From the NCBI RefSeq assembly GCF_003234965.1, contig NZ_QKVK01000003.1:248001-312000 (forward strand): 64,000 nucleotides of DNA, in the 5' to 3' direction. The notes under the pieces are model-generated. The model worked only from the letters and a program-made list of their open reading frames with translations. It had not been told where the DNA came from and did not search any database. The position numbers and the translations under genes are program-made. Within the stretch, counting starts at the first letter, position 1; every line of letters starts with the position of its first letter. The stretch is from Aestuariivirga litoralis. Its GTDB lineage: Bacteria; Pseudomonadota; Alphaproteobacteria; Rhizobiales; Aestuariivirgaceae. Below are positions 39,416 through 45,920 of the stretch, one piece after another.

Positions 39416-40708
39416 ATGAGTTTCGCGATTTCGGCAGACTTTCTTGCAGCGGAGAACGCGAAGCTCGAGGCTGCCCAGGCTGAGGATTATCAGGCTCTCG
39501 GCCGGCAGCTGTCACGCCGTGGCATTTCGATCGAGGCCATGACGGAGCGGGCGATGACCTACGCTGTCGCCGTTCCGACCTGGGGTGTCGGCACCGGCGG
39601 CACGCGCTTCGCACGCTTCCCCGGACCGGGCGAGCCACGCAATATCCATGACAAGCTGGAGGATTGCGGGGTTATCAACCAGCTGACACGGGTTACCCCT
39701 ACAGTGTCACCGCATTTCCCGTGGGACAAGGTGGCGGACTACAACGCGCTGCGCCAGGAGGCCGCGCGCCACGAGCTCGGTTTCGATGCAGTGAATTCCA
39801 ACACCTTCCAGGACCAGCGCGGCCAGCGGCACTCCTACAAGTTTGGCTCCCTCACCCATGCGGTCAAGGCCACACGCATGCAGGCGGTGGAGCACAATCT
39901 GGAATGCATCGAGATCGGACGCCAGCTGGGCTCGACCGCGCTCACGGTGTGGATAGCCGATGGCTCAAATTTCCCGGGCCAGTCCAACCTCAACGCCGCC
40001 TTCGACCGCTACATGGACTCGCTGCGGATCGTCTATGACGCGCTGCCCACGGACTGGTTGGTTTTCCTCGAGCACAAGCTCTACGAGCCTGCCTTCTATT
40101 CAACGGTGATCTCGGACTGGGGCTCCAGCTTCATGGCGGCACTGGAACTGGGACCGAAGGCGCGCTGCCTCGTCGACCTTGGACACCACGCGCCCAATAC
40201 CAACATAGAGCAGATTGTGGCGCGCCTGATCCGGGCCGGCAAGCTCGCAGGCTTCCACTTCAACGATTCGAAGTACGGTGACGACGACCTCGACTCCGGT
40301 TCCGTCGATCCCTTCCGCCTCTTCCTGGTGTTCAATGAGCTCGTGGATGCGGAGTTGCGTCAGGCTGAGGGCTTTTCACCTGCCTACATGATTGATCAGT
40401 CGCACAATGTGACCGACCCTATCGAGAGCCTGATGGCGTCGGCGATCGAAATCCAGCGGGCCTTCGTACAGGCCTCGCTGATCGACCGGGAGTTGCTCTC
40501 GGCGGCTCAGGACGGCGGCGACGTGATGCTGGGGCACCGCATCGTCAAGCAGGCTTTCATTACGGACGTATCGCCCATCCTCGCCGAGGCACGGCGGCGC
40601 AAGGGCGGCGCCATTGATCCGATCGGCCTGTACCGCTCGAGCGGCTATCGCGCCGAAAAGACGAAAGAGCGGCCGCCAGTGGAGGGCACCTCGGCCGGCA
40701 TCGTCTAG
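39416..40708 (+). CDS. rhaI: L-rhamnose isomerase
   Basis: A 430-residue cytoplasmic isomerase interconverting L-rhamnose and L-rhamnulose, of the TIM-barrel type found in rhizobia and Pseudomonas stutzeri. Metal- and substrate-binding regions can be seen: FLEHKLYEPAF (Glu), CLVDLGHHAPNTNIEQ (Asp, His) and GFHFNDSKYGDDDLDSGS (His, Asp). The start at 39416 is set by GAGGTGA immediately upstream, which contains the rhaD stop; the frame to 39377 overlaps rhaD. It is the last gene of the operon, and its TAG shares CTAG with the convergent MerR gene. Confidence 0.93.
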   Translation: MSFAISADFLAAENAKLEAAQAEDYQALGRQLSRRGISIEAMTERAMTYAVAVPTWGVGTGGTRFARFPGPGEPRNIHDKLEDCGVINQLTRVTPTVSPHFPWDKVADYNALRQEAARHELGFDAVNSNTFQDQRGQRHSYKFGSLTHAVKATRMQAVEHNLECIEIGRQLGSTALTVWIADGSNFPGQSNLNAAFDRYMDSLRIVYDALPTDWLVFLEHKLYEPAFYSTVISDWGSSFMAALELGPKARCLVDLGHHAPNTNIEQIVARLIRAGKLAGFHFNDSKYGDDDLDSGSVDPFRLFLVFNELVDAELRQAEGFSPAYMIDQSHNVTDPIESLMASAIEIQRAFVQASLIDRELLSAAQDGGDVMLGHRIVKQAFITDVSPILAEARRRKGGAIDPIGLYRSSGYRAEKTKERPPVEGTSAGIV

Positions 40709-41118
40709 GCGACCAGGCTTTCAAGGGCGCTGTGGGTCTTCTCGATCTGCTGCCTGAGCTCGTCCTGACGGTTCTTGAGCAGGTCGAGGTGCTGCTTCAG
40801 GTGCCGCACCGCCTTCTCGCTGGACAGCACATCCTCCTCAGGCGTCAGCATATCGAGGATCTCGCGGATCTGGGCGATGGGGACGCCAAGGCGCCGCAGG
40901 GTGAGGATGTTTTTCAGCCGGCGCACGTCGCTTGCAAGATAGGTGCGGAAGCGGCCGTGGCGGGCTGGTGAAATCAGCTCGACCCGCTCGTAGAACCGAA
41001 TGGTCTTGGGATCGGTGGAGGTGAGTTTGGCCAATTCGCCAATGAAGAGGAACCCGTCCTGCGGCTCATAGCTGTTGCCTGCCGGAGTCATGCCAATGTT
41101 GTCGAGTTGATCGTCCAT
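40705..41118 (-). CDS. MerR-family transcriptional regulator
   Basis: A 137-residue regulator with an N-terminal winged helix-turn-helix (about 25-95: FIGELAKLTSTDPKTIRFYERV, then RTYLASDVRRLKNILTLRRLG). A C-terminal dimerisation coiled coil (about 100-135) follows. There is no Cys pair in the C-terminus, so metal sensing of the MerR/CueR kind is unlikely. The effector is unknown. It converges on rhaI with a 4-base overlap and is the last gene before the flagellar relic, so its target may be lost or elsewhere. Confidence 0.85.
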   Translation of the reverse strand: MDDQLDNIGMTPAGNSYEPQDGFLFIGELAKLTSTDPKTIRFYERVELISPARHGRFRTYLASDVRRLKNILTLRRLGVPIAQIREILDMLTPEEDVLSSEKAVRHLKQHLDLLKNRQDELRQQIEKTHSALESLVA

Positions 41119-41470
41119 GGCTTGTTCCTTTCCGATGGTTGAGTTGATCGCCAGTTCAGATCTTTAAACATCGCTCTGTTTTCCCGTCAAGGGTGTATCA
41201 TGATCTATTTACGCTTTTAAAGTGTGGTCCCCATCGTTCTGTTGCGGCAAGCTTTCTCGTTAGTATTCGTGATTAATCCAAATATAGATCTATCTCTGAA
41301 GTTCACTTACAGATATATAGCGAAGTATAATTCCATTGAATTCAATTTATACGATGTGCAATGGCATGATATTACTCAGTTTTAAACAATTATTAACGGG
41401 CTGTTCTTGAAACTGCTTCCGTGAACCGTGTGAGTCCATCCGGATTCGCCCAGAGGAGCAGATTGCCGCC
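41119..41470. other. AT-rich intergenic region before the Rem-FlhA gene
   Basis: A 352-base gap, markedly AT-rich compared with its surroundings. It holds the candidate MerR promoter and a 12-base palindrome ATTGAATTCAAT (41335-41346). An AGGAG site at 41453-41457 is the likely ribosome-binding site of the next gene, though its spacing is long. No coding potential was seen. It is where the rhamnose locus meets the flagellar relic, so it may hold a rearrangement junction. Confidence 0.5.
41163..41190 (-). promoter_or_regulatory. candidate promoter of the MerR-family gene
   Basis: On the minus strand TTGACG (41190-41185) is followed by a 16-base spacer and TTTAAA (41168-41163). The start would be about 37 bases before the ATG. 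MerR-regulated promoters usually have long spacers (19-20 bases), so this one may serve basal expression. Confidence 0.4.
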
Positions 41471-42139
41471 ATGATCATTCTCGTTGATGACCGTACTGAC
41501 GTAACCGACGCCTATCGCGCCAGCTTCGGGCGTGAGGGGATATCTGCTGCGAGTTTCACGCCGTCAGATTTCGCCAACTGGTTCCACTCCACGAGCGGAC
41601 CTGATATCGCCGCAGTAGAAGCCTTCATCCTCGGCGATTTCATGCAGCGGGAAACGGTGACGAGGGCCATCAAGACGAAGTCGGAGGCACCGGCCATTGC
41701 CCTCAACGACTCGACCGGACTCGAGGCAACCCTGAAACTCTTCGCCGCTGGCGTGGACGACGTGGTGCGAAAGCCGGTCCATGCGCGGGAAATCATCGCC
41801 CGCATCGGGGCCATCCGGCGCCGTACCGCGATGCCAGCCAAGGCGGCCGACCTTGGAGACCTTCGCGTGTTCAATGACGGACGCGACCCGGAAGTGGGTG
41901 GCCGCACGCTGGTGCTGCCGCGGCGCGAGCGCCGGATGATTGAGCAGTTCGCAGGTGAGCTCTCAAGCGCGGTAAAGTCGCTCGTTGATCGCGGGGAGCA
42001 GTTTGCCCTGGTCACGGCACCGGAGGTACGGCCCTATGTGCGCATGATCGTGGATCGTCTGTTTCCGGCCATTCCCGTGCTATCGCATATCGAGATATCC
42101 CGGGGTGTGAGGTTGGAGGTGGCTGCATCTCTGTCATGA
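41471..42139 (+). CDS. Rem-FlhA chimeric protein (regulator fused to FlhA C-terminus)
   Basis: An intact 222-residue ORF made of two unrelated parts. Residues 1 to about 155 match Rem, the OmpR-type flagellar regulator of rhizobia: ILVDDRTDVTDAYRASFGRE, AAVEAFILGD, GVDDVVRKPVHAREI, FNDGRDPEVGG and LPRRERR. The DNA-binding domain that should follow is absent. From about residue 156 the sequence is the end of the export-gate protein FlhA (VKSLVDRGEQFALVTAPEVRPYVRMIVDRL, here in two overlapping pieces of under 20 residues: VKSLVDRGEQFALV and TAPEVRPYVRMIVDRL, then VLSHIEISRGV). The stop overlaps the fliR ATG, as flhA does in intact loci. An in-frame deletion between rem and flhA explains this; junction about 41933-41944. 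Any function is unknown. Confidence 0.8.
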   Translation: MIILVDDRTDVTDAYRASFGREGISAASFTPSDFANWFHSTSGPDIAAVEAFILGDFMQRETVTRAIKTKSEAPAIALNDSTGLEATLKLFAAGVDDVVRKPVHAREIIARIGAIRRRTAMPAKAADLGDLRVFNDGRDPEVGGRTLVLPRRERRMIEQFAGELSSAVKSLVDRGEQFALVTAPEVRPYVRMIVDRLFPAIPVLSHIEISRGVRLEVAASLS

Positions 42140-42897
42140 CGCACACCATCGAGACGCAACTGCTTGGCCTCTTCCTGCTGTTCTGTCGCATCGGGGGATG
42201 CATGCTGTTTGCGCCGGGCCTGTCGAGTCCGCGTGTCCCGATGCACGTGAGGCTCTTTGCAGCCCTAGCTGTCACTGTTGCTGTCGCACCCATGCTCATG
42301 CCCGGGACTTTTCCTGATCTGTCTCGGGGCTCTGATGATCGCAGGCTATGGCTGATCCTGTCAGAATCTCTTGTCGGAGTGATGATTGGCCTGCTGGCTC
42401 GATGCTTTTTTCTCGCGCTGCAGTTTGCTGCGACTGCGATCTCGAACTTCGTGGGGCTCTCCGGCATCCCGGGCATTCCTCTGGAGGAGTCGGACACTGG
42501 CTCGCCATTGTCGACCCTGGTGTCGACGGCGTCGGTCACCTTGATCTTCGCGATGGGGCTTCACTTGGAGCTTTTGCGGGCAGTGATAGACTCCTATGCG
42601 GTTATGCCTCTGGGCAACTGGATCGGGGCTGGTTCACTTCTCACCAATCTGTTGACGACTCTCGCCGAAACCTGGCTCCTGGCGTTGCGCCTTGCGGCAC
42701 CGTTTCTGCTTTATGGTGTGATGGTCAATGTCGCACTTGGCATTGGCAATCGCTTTGCGCAGCAGATTTCTGTCTACCACGCAACCACGGGTGCGGTGAT
42801 GCTGGGGGGATTTCTTCTGTTTTACATTGTCTGGGTAGATTGGGCGATGGTGTTTACTGGCTCTTATCAGGCGTGGCTCAGGGACGGTGGATTTTGA
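42136..42897 (+). CDS. fliR: flagellar export-gate protein FliR
   Basis: A 253-residue polytopic membrane protein, full length for FliR of the type III flagellar export apparatus. Family regions include LFLLFCRIGGCMLFAPGLSS, PMHVRLFAALAVTVAVAPM, GVMIGLLARCFFLALQFAA, GIPLEESDTGSPL and NVALGIGNRFAQQISVYHAT. It appears undamaged, although its usual upstream partner flhA is reduced to a C-terminal stub in the preceding ORF. Without FlhA, FlhB, FliP and FliQ it could not form an export gate; none of these is in the window. Confidence 0.9.
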   Translation: MTHTIETQLLGLFLLFCRIGGCMLFAPGLSSPRVPMHVRLFAALAVTVAVAPMLMPGTFPDLSRGSDDRRLWLILSESLVGVMIGLLARCFFLALQFAATAISNFVGLSGIPGIPLEESDTGSPLSTLVSTASVTLIFAMGLHLELLRAVIDSYAVMPLGNWIGAGSLLTNLLTTLAETWLLALRLAAPFLLYGVMVNVALGIGNRFAQQISVYHATTGAVMLGGFLLFYIVWVDWAMVFTGSYQAWLRDGGF

Positions 42898-43301
42898 CCA
42901 GATCCTCCCAACGTCTACAGAGGCTCGCTCGTGCGCAGGCAGATCTTGCTGAGCTGCTCGAATCGAAGATTGCAGCAAGTCAGCGGCGCGGCAACGATCT
43001 TGCAAGCACCCGCGCCGGCACGCTTGCGGCGCTTGAGAGGATAAGCATGGAGGGTTTGACCTTCTATGCAGCGGCACTGCGTCGTCTCACGGAGCTCGAC
43101 AATGCGACCATAGAGAACGATGCGCTTCGGCGGGACCTGCTGGCTCAGTTGCGGCAGGTGCGGACGCGGCAAGATGCCCTGCAACGAAAGGCGGATGCAC
43201 AGGCCGCCGTGATGATGCGCAGGATGATGAACGCGGAGATTGGCGAGACCGCACTTGCCATGCAGGAGAAAGCTCCGCGCAAGGGTGGCGTGTTGAAGTG
43301 A
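42894..43301 (+). CDS. FliJ-like coiled-coil protein of the flagellar cluster
   Basis: About 135 residues, almost entirely helical and charged, predicted to form a long coiled coil. It lies just after fliR, where rhizobial flagellar loci often carry a FliJ-like gene. The best start is the TTG at 42894, which overlaps the fliR stop (TTGA); the frame upstream is a shadow of fliR. No signal peptide or membrane span. The FliJ assignment rests on position and coiled-coil character, not on a specific motif. Confidence 0.6.
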   Translation: MTRSSQRLQRLARAQADLAELLESKIAASQRRGNDLASTRAGTLAALERISMEGLTFYAAALRRLTELDNATIENDALRRDLLAQLRQVRTRQDALQRKADAQAAVMMRRMMNAEIGETALAMQEKAPRKGGVLK

Positions 43302-43325: not shown

Positions 43326-43832
43326 ATGGCCGTCAGCCTTCCATCTGACCTCGTTGCAGACGTCATCCGCAGTGCTGATCCAGCCCGCCACCAGGCGGCA
43401 GCACGACGTCTGCAGTCTATCAGCGAGGGGGAGTCAGCCTTTGCCGCAGCGATCGATCAGTCAGCGCCTCTCGGTGCAAGTCAAGGCGGGCAAGAAGTGG
43501 TCCTCGCTACTGAGCACGGGTTGTCTGGTGCTCGCGACGGCATGGCGGTCGACCAACCCAAACTATTCCGTAGCTTCGAGCAGGTCGTGTTGCGCAGCCT
43601 GTTTGAAACTCTGCTGCCCGAGTCTGAGTCGGGTGCCTTCGGGGGTGGTCCGTCGGCCGGCGTTTGGCGGTCGATGGCGGCGGATCAGCTGGCTGGTGTC
43701 TATGCCCAGAGTGGAGGTATCGGCGTTGCGCGTATGCTGGCATCACAGGCTTCAAACTCCACACCGGGGCGTGAGGAGCAGTGGCCCTACTTCAGGCTCC
43801 AACCATTGAAGGCATTTGGAAGCGAAGGCTAG
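43326..43832 (+). CDS. rod-binding protein, FlgJ N-terminal domain type
   Basis: A 168-residue protein. The C-terminal half (about 75-145) fits the rod-binding domain of FlgJ: FRSFEQVVLRSLFETLLPES, then WRSMAADQLAGVYAQSGGIGVARML. It lacks the muramidase domain of enterobacterial FlgJ, as is usual in alphaproteobacteria. Its expected role is as a periplasmic rod cap; no clear signal peptide is present, so export would need the flagellar route. GAG precedes the ATG by 9 bases. Confidence 0.72.
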   Translation: MAVSLPSDLVADVIRSADPARHQAAARRLQSISEGESAFAAAIDQSAPLGASQGGQEVVLATEHGLSGARDGMAVDQPKLFRSFEQVVLRSLFETLLPESESGAFGGGPSAGVWRSMAADQLAGVYAQSGGIGVARMLASQASNSTPGREEQWPYFRLQPLKAFGSEG

Positions 43833-43836
43833 CTGA

Positions 43837-44199
43837 ATGAGTTCTGCACCATCGGCTGATGCTGCCCTTGGGCCCGCCCTCGGCAAGCTCATCGCTACTC
43901 TTGAGGAAGAGAATGCAGTGTTGGCCGAACAGAAGTTCGTGTCCCATGCTGCCTATACCGATCGCAAGAACCAGACGCTGAGGGAGCTCATGGCGGCACA
44001 ACGTAAGGAAGGTACAGCCATGAGCACAGAACTTCGATTGCAGCTGCAGAAGCTTGCGGTGGTGCTCAGAGAGAATGCCCGGCTTCTGAAACTTCACATC
44101 GCAGCAGTTGGGGAGATAAGCGACATCATTGTCGGTAGCCTCAGGGACGCCGAGTCTGACGGTACCTACTCGCGACGGAGCGGCACCAGCCGTTGGTGA
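43837..44199 (+). CDS. FlgN-like chaperone candidate
   Basis: A 120-residue, mainly helical protein (LGKLIATLEEENAVLAEQ, TDRKNQTLRELMAAQRK, LQLQKLAVVLRENARLLK). Size, helix content and position after the rod-binding gene fit FlgN, the export chaperone for hook-filament junction proteins FlgK and FlgL. It lies 4 bases after the previous gene. The flgK and flgL genes it would serve are among those normally between rem and flhA, and they are not in this window. Confidence 0.55.
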   Translation: MSSAPSADAALGPALGKLIATLEEENAVLAEQKFVSHAAYTDRKNQTLRELMAAQRKEGTAMSTELRLQLQKLAVVLRENARLLKLHIAAVGEISDIIVGSLRDAESDGTYSRRSGTSRW

Positions 44200-44205
44200 T
44201 TGGGC

Positions 44206-44682
44206 ATGCTGAAGCTTGTGGCAGTTGGCGTGTGGGTCATTCTCGTCACTGCGGGCGCCACCTTTGCTTCAGGCTATCTAGGCAGCGCTCCTTCGCCCTC
44301 CGCTCCGCAGGAGGATCTTGGAGTCGAGCAGATGACCGCGGAACTTACCAGTGTTCCTGTGATGCGGGGTGGAGAGGTTGCTGGTTACGTGATCCTGCAA
44401 TTGTCTTTCTCCGCAGACCGTGCCCTACTGGCCCAGAAGAAGGTTGAGCCTATGCCCTACATCAAGGATTCGGCCTTCCGGGTGATATTCACGAGTGCTG
44501 ACGTCGATTTTCGGCATCTGAAGCCTGGTGACCTGGACCGGCTGACTGACACGATCGCCCGTGAAGCAAACCGCAGGCTTGGCATGGAACTTGTACGACA
44601 GGTTCTTTTCCAGCAGCTGAACTACGTCAAGAAGGAGGACATTCGGACCAACTGGAGCAATGGCGAGCCGGCACAGCACTGA
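44206..44682 (+). CDS. FliL-like membrane protein of the flagellar cluster
   Basis: A 158-residue protein with one N-terminal membrane span (LKLVAVGVWVILVTAGATFASGYL, a segment of residues 2-25). A soluble domain with GYVILQLSFSADRALL and LTDTIAREANRRLGMELVRQVL follows. This resembles FliL-type basal-body-associated proteins seen after fliR in rhizobia. The ATG at 44206 is preferred over the TTG at 44200. Its end overlaps the next small gene by 23 bases in another frame. Confidence 0.6.
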   Translation: MLKLVAVGVWVILVTAGATFASGYLGSAPSPSAPQEDLGVEQMTAELTSVPVMRGGEVAGYVILQLSFSADRALLAQKKVEPMPYIKDSAFRVIFTSADVDFRHLKPGDLDRLTDTIAREANRRLGMELVRQVLFQQLNYVKKEDIRTNWSNGEPAQH

Positions 44683-45164: not shown

Positions 45165-45365
45165 ATGGAAGAGCAGGCATTCGAGACTATCAAGCTTTTG
45201 CCACGGCGTGACCTGGAGACCTTCGCGTTGCGCGCGGCCATTCACATGCGAGAAGCAAGACGCGAGATGGAATCCGGGCGCTTCTTCTCGGCCGTGCTCA
45301 TGGGCTTTCTGCTGGGAGCCCTGGTGGCATCTGCCGCTTTCCTTCTCGGTTCCAGCCTAGGCTGA
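45165..45365 (+). CDS. small membrane protein at the end of the flagellar relic
   Basis: A 66-residue protein. A charged helical part (LPRRDLETFALRAAIHMREARREMESGRF, within residues 12-40) is followed by a membrane span (LMGFLLGALVASAAFLLG). No family was recognised. It follows in the same direction as the flagellar genes and ends with a 9-base overlap with the convergent hpt gene. Confidence 0.5.
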   Translation: MEEQAFETIKLLPRRDLETFALRAAIHMREARREMESGRFFSAVLMGFLLGALVASAAFLLGSSLG

Positions 45366-45920
45366 GGGCGTGCTCGTGGGGATGATGTGACCGACGAAGG
45401 GAAGCTCGCGAAACTGGTGCGCCATGTCCATGCCATATCCGACCACGAATTTGTCCGGGCATTTGAATCCCTCGAAATCCGCAGCGATATGTGCCGCAAG
45501 ATGACCCGGCTTGTTCAAAAGAACAGCCGTGAAGGTGCCCTTGGCACCACGGGCGGCTAGCAAGTCCTTGGCGAAGGCTAGCGTGCGTCCCGATTCGAGA
45601 ATGTCATCGATCAGCAGTACGTCGCGCCCGCGCACATCTGTCTCGATATCGCGCAACACGGTCACCTGTCCTGAAGACTTTGTTGACTTGCGATAGCTAG
45701 ACAGAATCATGAAATCGACTTCAGGCGATAATCCCGCGTGGTGCATGGCCCGAATGAGGTCGGCCGCGAAGACAAAACTTCCCTTGAGGATGGGCACAAC
45801 GAGAAGATTCGTGGGCTCGCGATCGGCAATGTCGGAGGCAATGGCCTTCACACGCGCCGCAATTTCAGACTCGCTGAACAGGACGCCGATGCGGTGCCCG
45901 TCGATTGTAAGTTCGCTCAT
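45357..45920 (-). CDS. hpt: hypoxanthine phosphoribosyltransferase
   Basis: A 187-residue purine-salvage enzyme that converts hypoxanthine (and guanine) with PRPP to the nucleotide. The PRPP-binding motif reads VLLIDDILESGRTLAF. The flexible loop region is SSYRKSTKSSGQV, the purine-specificity region PDKFVVGYGMDMAHQFRELP. It overlaps the zinc-ribbon gene upstream (ATGA), so the two are co-translated, and converges with the small membrane protein gene. Confidence 0.94.
   Translation of the reverse strand: MSELTIDGHRIGVLFSESEIAARVKAIASDIADREPTNLLVVPILKGSFVFAADLIRAMHHAGLSPEVDFMILSSYRKSTKSSGQVTVLRDIETDVRGRDVLLIDDILESGRTLAFAKDLLAARGAKGTFTAVLLNKPGHLAAHIAADFEGFKCPDKFVVGYGMDMAHQFRELPFVGHIIPTSTPSA

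Follow-up and report, generated by a model that had tools for sequence, protein, structure and literature searches.

Flagella are often lost in bacteria, and to our knowledge the molecular scars of such losses are seldom caught. For rhizobia, a review presents Rem as the master flagellar regulator of S. meliloti and R. leguminosarum, rem being activated by VisNR and Rem activating flagellar assembly genes; it also presents LafR, the Rem homologue of Bradyrhizobium, as an orphan regulator for which phosphorylation is not needed (PMC8429497). Massive flagellar losses are reported for Actinobacteria (PMC10746217), and a list of flagellate Aestuariivirgaceae does not name A. litoralis (PMC8555084).

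The locus described here joins a piece of Rem to a piece of the flagellar export protein FlhA. Residues 1-155 of the fused gene product are orthologous to the Rem of flagellate members of the genus, with the same flanking gene and upstream block, whereas the DNA-binding half (Trans_reg_C) is swapped for the tail of FlhA, and fliR remains as the only one of the flagellar genes searched for. Of FlhA, the fusion keeps the last 66 residues in their native place before fliR, but the whole membrane part is missing. As in flagellum loss in other bacteria, the whole cluster is lost and the flanks are kept; here, however, the scar is an open in-frame chimera, which is repeated in a second species and whose flhA codon recurs in a third. 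Neither a Rem-FlhA chimera nor any other FlhA-tail chimera was found in the literature searched, as judged by titles and abstract openings.

The window, that is the whole stretch of 64,000 nucleotides analysed, lies on contig C20 of the Aestuariivirga litoralis genome (G000; 4,231,275 bases in 26 contigs, reported as 100% complete), and its relevant features are collected in Table 1. An earlier note, made from the letters of the window, had proposed an ORF of 222 codons that begins as Rem (residues 1-155) and ends as the tail of FlhA, and this is borne out by Pfam, NCBIfam and the alignment with intact relatives. Rem homology runs to LPRRERR (residue 155) and FlhA resumes at IEQFA, with residues 157-222 aligning to FlhA; residue 156 (Met) is the joint codon and an exact fit to neither parent. 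Response_reg matches residues 2-112 with 25.0 bits, under the Pfam cut-off of 30.2, and is likewise below it in the intact Rem of the flagellate relative G031 (25.3 bits). FHIPEP matches residues 153-212 to positions 596-655 of the 657 of its profile with 30.3 bits, barely above the cut-off of 29.1, and the NCBIfam FlhA model TIGR01398 matches residues 154-219 to positions 611-676 of 678, a fragment match far under the whole-protein cut-off. Both halves share 85-90% protein identity with their orthologues in G028, G031 and G001. Since, in addition, the same joint occurs in a second genome (G018), the fusion is not a product of chance.

The note's further claims on the gene and its product hold as well. 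The stop codon of the fusion (TGA at 42137-42139) overlaps the ATG of fliR at 42136, just as the flhA stop does in G028 and G031, which suggests that translation of the fusion and of fliR may be coupled. Pfam finds no Trans_reg_C in the fusions of the window and of G018, whereas the intact Rem of G031 has one at 145-220; the domain is also present in the Rem of G035 and G036. The N-terminal transmembrane export-gate domain of FlhA is absent, the FHIPEP profile before position 596 of 657 being missing from the fusion. A predicted structure of the fusion (15 aligned rows) was uninformative, with a mean pLDDT of 45.2. Upstream of the gene, the block common to the flagellate relatives is likely to be the retained rem promoter.

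Table 1 Features of the window around the Rem-FlhA fusion.
Feature	Position	Strand	Basis
MerR-family regulator, left flank of the flagellar cluster of relatives	40705..41118	-	Gene order, NCBIfam, Pfam
rem upstream region; block TTTTAA...TTAAC... common to flagellate relatives; GAGGAG before ATG	41380..41470	+	7-genome alignment, DNA
Rem-FlhA fusion ORF, 222 codons	41471..42139	+	ORF from ATG, Pfam, NCBIfam, alignment
Rem-derived part, codons 1-155: receiver-like domain and beginning of winged helix	41471..41935	+	Response_reg 2-112, alignment with intact Rem
Joint region CGC CGG ATG ATT GAG	41930..41944	.	Counterpart in G018: CGC CGC ATA ATC GAA
FlhA-derived tail, 66 residues (IEQFA...ASLS), very C-terminus of FlhA	41939..42136	+	FHIPEP, alignment
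fliR, full length, open, starts inside the fusion stop	42136..42897	+	Bac_export_1; NF009416 below cut-off
m1, short coiled-coil-like ORF at what we take to be the fliJ position	42897..43301	+	Matches in G018, G028, G031, G001
m2, FlgJ-like rod-binding protein	43326..43832	+	PF10135; NF009431 below cut-off
m3, conserved gene of the remnant operon, no family found	43837..44199	+	Pfam, NCBIfam, matches in relatives
m4, conserved gene of the remnant operon, no family found	44200..44682	+	Pfam, NCBIfam, matches in relatives
Presumed phosphoribosyltransferase-like gene ('hprt'), right flank conserved in relatives	45357..45920	-	Gene order, matches

Both parents of the fusion are intact in G028 and G031: in each, a single contig with the same flanks carries rem, then roughly 30 kb of flagellar genes, then flhA and fliR (rem versus the end of flhA: 82,653 versus 52,231 on C13 of G028, and 5,213 versus 35,948 on C86 of G031). 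In the intervening stretch of G031, 27 of the 30 ORFs examined have a Pfam family and three have none. The families found comprise the export ATPase, rod and hook proteins, DUF1217, MotA, FliMN, FliG, FlhB, FliE, FlgA, FlgI, FlgH, FliL, FliP, flagellin, FliF, MotB, an SLT protein, FlgE, FlgK, a second flagellin-type protein, FlaF, FlbT, FlgD and FliQ; two more flagellin ORFs of the stretch, outside those 30, match Flagellin_N. Seven families were searched for singly, namely FliR, FlhA, FliP, rod, FlhB, flagellin and FliF. Of these seven, G000 has a complete FliR and the FlhA tail alone: FHIPEP has no match beyond the tail of the fusion, and FliP, rod, FlhB, flagellin and FliF have no match in whole-genome profile searches of G000, nor in G018. 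A full-length flhA, which the note had wanted sought elsewhere in the genome, is thus missing, and among 61 genomes the fusion was nowhere seen beside an intact rem and flhA. The large in-frame deletion that the note had inferred is supported by these intact parents about 30 kb apart with the same flanks and by the families absent from G000; it would have joined the front of rem to the last tenth of flhA.

We propose the following course of events. In the ancestor, merR and rem would have been followed by some 30 kb of flagellar genes and then by flhA, fliR, m1 to m4 and the phosphoribosyltransferase-like gene. A single deletion would then have begun at rem codon 156 and spared no more of flhA than its last 66 or so codons; each end probably lies at the start of an alpha-helix. 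The two sites, rem R-R-I-L-E and flhA P-R-L-I-E-Q, share an imperfect short homology (13 of 21 nt) and are in the same codon phase, so that the joint preserves the frame for free, and with it the overlap of the stop with the fliR start. The encoded protein would consist of a receiver-like domain without its DNA-binding half and a piece of FlhA without the export-gate membrane domain. Because the conserved block upstream of rem is kept, the rem promoter would probably still drive the fusion, with read-through into fliR, and the protein would be translated but idle; it could activate no flagellar genes, fliR being the only one left of the families searched. On balance, we think it probable that the gene is a deletion scar at a recurrent flhA breakpoint, presumably expressed but functionless.

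A search of the fusion against 61 genomes gave full-length matches in two, G000 and G018 (83% identity), the latter a metagenome-assembled genome labelled Rhizobium sp. (contig CAMDBX010000005.1). The joint, the upstream MerR gene and the downstream fliR are all as in G000. Because the same joint occurs in a second species, the fusion is no isolated case but a mark of flagellum loss that either arose repeatedly or has long been kept. The comparison of the junction in related genomes, which the note had recommended, yielded a further case in G035 (JADCDC010000577.1, 74% complete), in which MotA residues 1-41 run in frame into FlhA, entering it at the codon that is also used in Rem-FlhA (L038:4840-5166). 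An open fliR follows this fusion, and an intact rem, an ORF that is FliI-like by eye and a rod-family ORF lie beside it. The joint in G018 and the codon of the motA fusion together suggest that the flhA site is a recurrent breakpoint and that the genus loses its flagellum often, probably at fairly recent dates.

Two further relatives, G025 and G030, lost the same cluster by other deletions. In G025, a different deletion extends from inside merR to m1 (L176:12296-12718) and leaves an undecayed merR fragment and undecayed m2-m4, with no FliR family match left. In G030, fliR and m1-m4 are gone and the matches to merR and the phosphoribosyltransferase lie about 0.2 kb apart. In G011 (87% complete), unrelated ORFs, one of which we take to resemble a recombination protein, lie beside the phosphoribosyltransferase-like gene, where relatives carry the flagellar cluster (L175:469-3946); there is no FliR match in this genome, and m1-m4 are unmatched in the stretch examined. 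Among the 37 genomes of the genus, some of them incomplete, 22 have a match to FliR, 17 to FliP, 19 to rod, 18 to FlhB and 18 to flagellin, and the flagellum has therefore been lost repeatedly. In an order-wide scan for the FlhA tail, 280 of 397 genomes had a match. Among the matches listed, the tail lies in a frame far shorter than FlhA in the window (242) and in G150, where a partial match (residues 35-67) sits in a frame of 56 at base 71 of its contig; five of the matches listed have frames of 457 to 604.

Several observations concern Rem and the remnant genes outside these losses. Rem homologues with 51% and 41% identity to the Rem of G031 over the matched parts were found in G036 (L195:3739-4425) and G012 (79% complete; L196:2138-2806), both of which have no match to FliP, FlhB, rod, flagellin or FliR; the copy in G036 has a Trans_reg_C. 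Rem may thus be used outside flagella. Besides flagellar genes of the genus type, G006 has a second, different set of FliP, FliR and FlhB (C302:2477-5181). A weak FliR-like fragment with an inner TGA is present in G016 (C29:5241-5420), and the 14 kb around it contain no match to proteins of the window or to flagellar proteins of G031. Downstream of fliR in the window, m3 and m4 (43837-44682) are conserved genes without a Pfam or NCBIfam match, and m4 persists in G025, which has no fliR. The identity of m4 to its counterparts in G018, G028, G031 and G001 is 73-80% and exceeds that of fliR in all four.

The joint shared by G000 and G018 may go back to independent deletions or to a single one. 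The second reading, which we regard as rather unlikely, is that one old deletion became common to both by incomplete sorting or exchange near their split and was kept for a flagellum-free role of the fusion or of the operon. Apart from the joint itself, it is favoured by the kept upstream block, by the low omega of the fusion and by the open frames of the fusion, fliR and m2-m4. The DNA of G000 and G018 is 77.8% identical in rem, 72.7% in the tail and 63.0% in fliR. This is below the identity of G000 to G028, G031 and G001 in each part, which speaks against one old deletion. The divergence reaches right up to the joint, and this excludes that one of the two species recently acquired it from the other.

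The trees point mostly away from a sister relationship of the two. G000 is placed with G028 and G031 by the flanking genes (98.4/68) and by a set of 14,179 protein columns from three loci (97.3/88), in which G018 groups with G001 and G011 (90.9/82) and branches are short; without G011, the split of G000, G028 and G031 from the rest drops to 61.1/68. A quick RpoB tree puts G000 outside G001, G028, G031, G018 and G011 (90). Individual loci differ in their preferences: Rem alone places G018 with G028/G031, fliR places G000 with G028/G031, and m2-m4 slightly favour G000 with G018. Sister trees are 7.4 and 15.0 lnL units worse for rem plus tail (KH 0.165 and 0.080, not rejected), 1.5 and 3.4 worse for the tail alone, 13 worse for fliR, and 20 and 31 worse for rem, tail and fliR together, the KH test being liberal. 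Derived sites exclusive to G000 and G018 number six in rem plus tail, the largest class (3 to 5 for other pairs), but zero in the 70 codons nearest the joint (0 to 3 for other pairs).

In the che region of G000 (L197:10275-13071), three genes adjoining those of CheA/CheW type are 85-91% identical to G031 and G001 and 72-84% to G018 and G028. With the loci in disagreement and this one grouping differently, exchange between lineages is likely. Such signs of exchange, together with the short internal branches, the compatibility of rem plus tail with a sister tree and the slight preference of m2-m4, speak for one old shared deletion. It is opposed by the worse sister trees for fliR and for rem, tail and fliR together, by the missing exclusive sites round the joint, by G035, which needs an event of its own at that codon in any case, and by the truncated merR of G025, which is equally conserved. 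Since most trees do not show G000 and G018 as sisters and a young shared tract around the joint is absent, we lean towards independent deletions with a recurrent flhA breakpoint; the sequence of the fusion alone cannot decide between these and one shared event. The price of independent deletions is that two of them must coincide at both ends and a third must coincide with them at one, and that rem plus tail does not reject the sister relationship. A two-step origin through a motA-flhA intermediate was set aside, since RpoB groups G035 with the flagellate G006 (96) and the FlhA tail of G035 is closest to that of G006.

If in-frame ends were distributed uniformly over the approximately 700 codons of flhA, a coincidence by chance would have odds of about 1 in 700 by our own estimate. 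Given the flhA end, the position of the joint in rem ranks first of 676 in G031 and second of 673 in G028 for homology over -12..+9 (13 of 21 nt), and first to eighth in these two genomes over the five windows tried. Within 29 kb, it ranks sixth or eighth with about 35 ties, and in the complete rem by flhA matrices of three genomes, 339 to 1,873 windows of 21 nt match better than the joint. No homology was found at the motA joint of G035, and no long direct repeats were found at the joints, one of the two scans covering two genomes. A hairpin or palindrome at the flhA breakpoint was also considered and rejected as inconsistent, the fractions of equally stable windows being 0.023, 0.079 and 0.322 in three genomes. 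Short homology would thus account for the rem end only in part and for the motA end not at all.

Branch omegas were estimated with a codon model in a purpose-written script on a tree of nine species; they are rough, because synonymous changes are near saturation. For the Rem part, omega is 0.040 overall, 0.019 in G000 and 0.061 in G018; for the tail 0.028, 0.023 and 0.036, with 0.007 in G035; and for fliR 0.063, 0.035 and 0.104, with 0.025 in G035. None of these single-branch tests is significant, and the branch omegas give no significant signal of relaxed selection in the fusion or in fliR. For the whole fusion, omega is 0.021 in G000 against 0.043 elsewhere and 0.056 in G018 against 0.038 elsewhere, an omega of 0.05 in G000 being 3.05 lnL units worse and one of 0.15 in G018 being 3.53 worse. 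In G018, rem, tail, fliR and m4 exceed the background omega but m2 and m3 do not, and the control genes for the phosphoribosyltransferase, FtsX and RhaI fall below it; relaxation across its remnant genes would be slight at most.

About 0.04 neutral substitutions per site give a 95% chance of a stop in one of the fusion, fliR, m2, m3 and m4. As all five frames of the window are nevertheless open, either the loss is very recent or the remnant genes are still used. The truncated merR of G025 provided a control for this alternative. The fragment has no MerR_1 HTH match, and we infer that it is functionless, yet its omega (0.006) is no higher than that found elsewhere (0.028; p=0.22); the upper bound is weak, an omega of 0.05 being 1.32 and one of 0.1 being 1.99 lnL units worse. 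Since this fragment looks as undecayed as the fusion, recent loss is the likelier explanation of the fusion than retained function, and undecayed fragments may be usual in the genus, the control being small and a single fragment. The earlier note had left it at a fusion either recent or retained. This fork is now sharper: the joint is also present in G018 and constraint is not measurably lower, yet a truncated merR is equally undecayed. The comparison of synonymous with nonsynonymous change, proposed there as a check, gave a low omega for the fusion, and the control behaves alike. For the deletion scar that we prefer, this means that the missing signal of lost constraint would be equally expected from retention by selection, and that the case for recency depends on a single control fragment, whose omega is weakly bounded from above.

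Retention could take the form of an exapted small regulator or scaffold, composed of the receiver and the end piece of FlhA and under purifying selection in two flagellum-less species with CheA/CheW-type genes, the breakpoint recurring because the piece or a break-prone site matters. We consider this improbable. CheW-family matches occur in 15 of the 37 genomes of the genus, including G000 and the flagellum-poor G018, G025, G011 and G035, which makes chemosensory signalling in the absence of flagella one context in which the fusion could have kept a role. The matches kept in G000 lie at C22:139318-140205; CheW is unmatched in G029 and G034, which are flagellate.

Selection might instead have acted downstream, favouring joints that let translation continue into fliR and m1-m4, with the fusion as a mere leader. 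The rem and motA fusions are indeed both in frame and keep the overlap with fliR; m4 is more constrained in G000 than elsewhere (0.014 against 0.061, p=0.0009), and m2-m4 persist in G025 without a FliR match, at omegas not significantly different from the rest. We nonetheless doubt this explanation, which would account for the frame and not for the identical codon. We know of no use for a FliR without FlhA, FlhB and FliP, and the whole set fliR and m1-m4 is gone from G030 and unmatched in G011 to the extent given above. An assembly artefact joining two genes is highly improbable, given the same joint in the separate assembly of another species, whose Rem half differs by about 22% in DNA, and the absence of the searched families from a whole assembly reported as complete.

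Overall, several different deletions of one flagellar cluster survive in related species; two of these species have the same in-frame chimera, and another has a motA chimera whose FlhA tail starts at the same codon. They offer a testable case for the recurrence of breakpoints and for how fast, or whether, the proteins encoded by in-frame scars decay.
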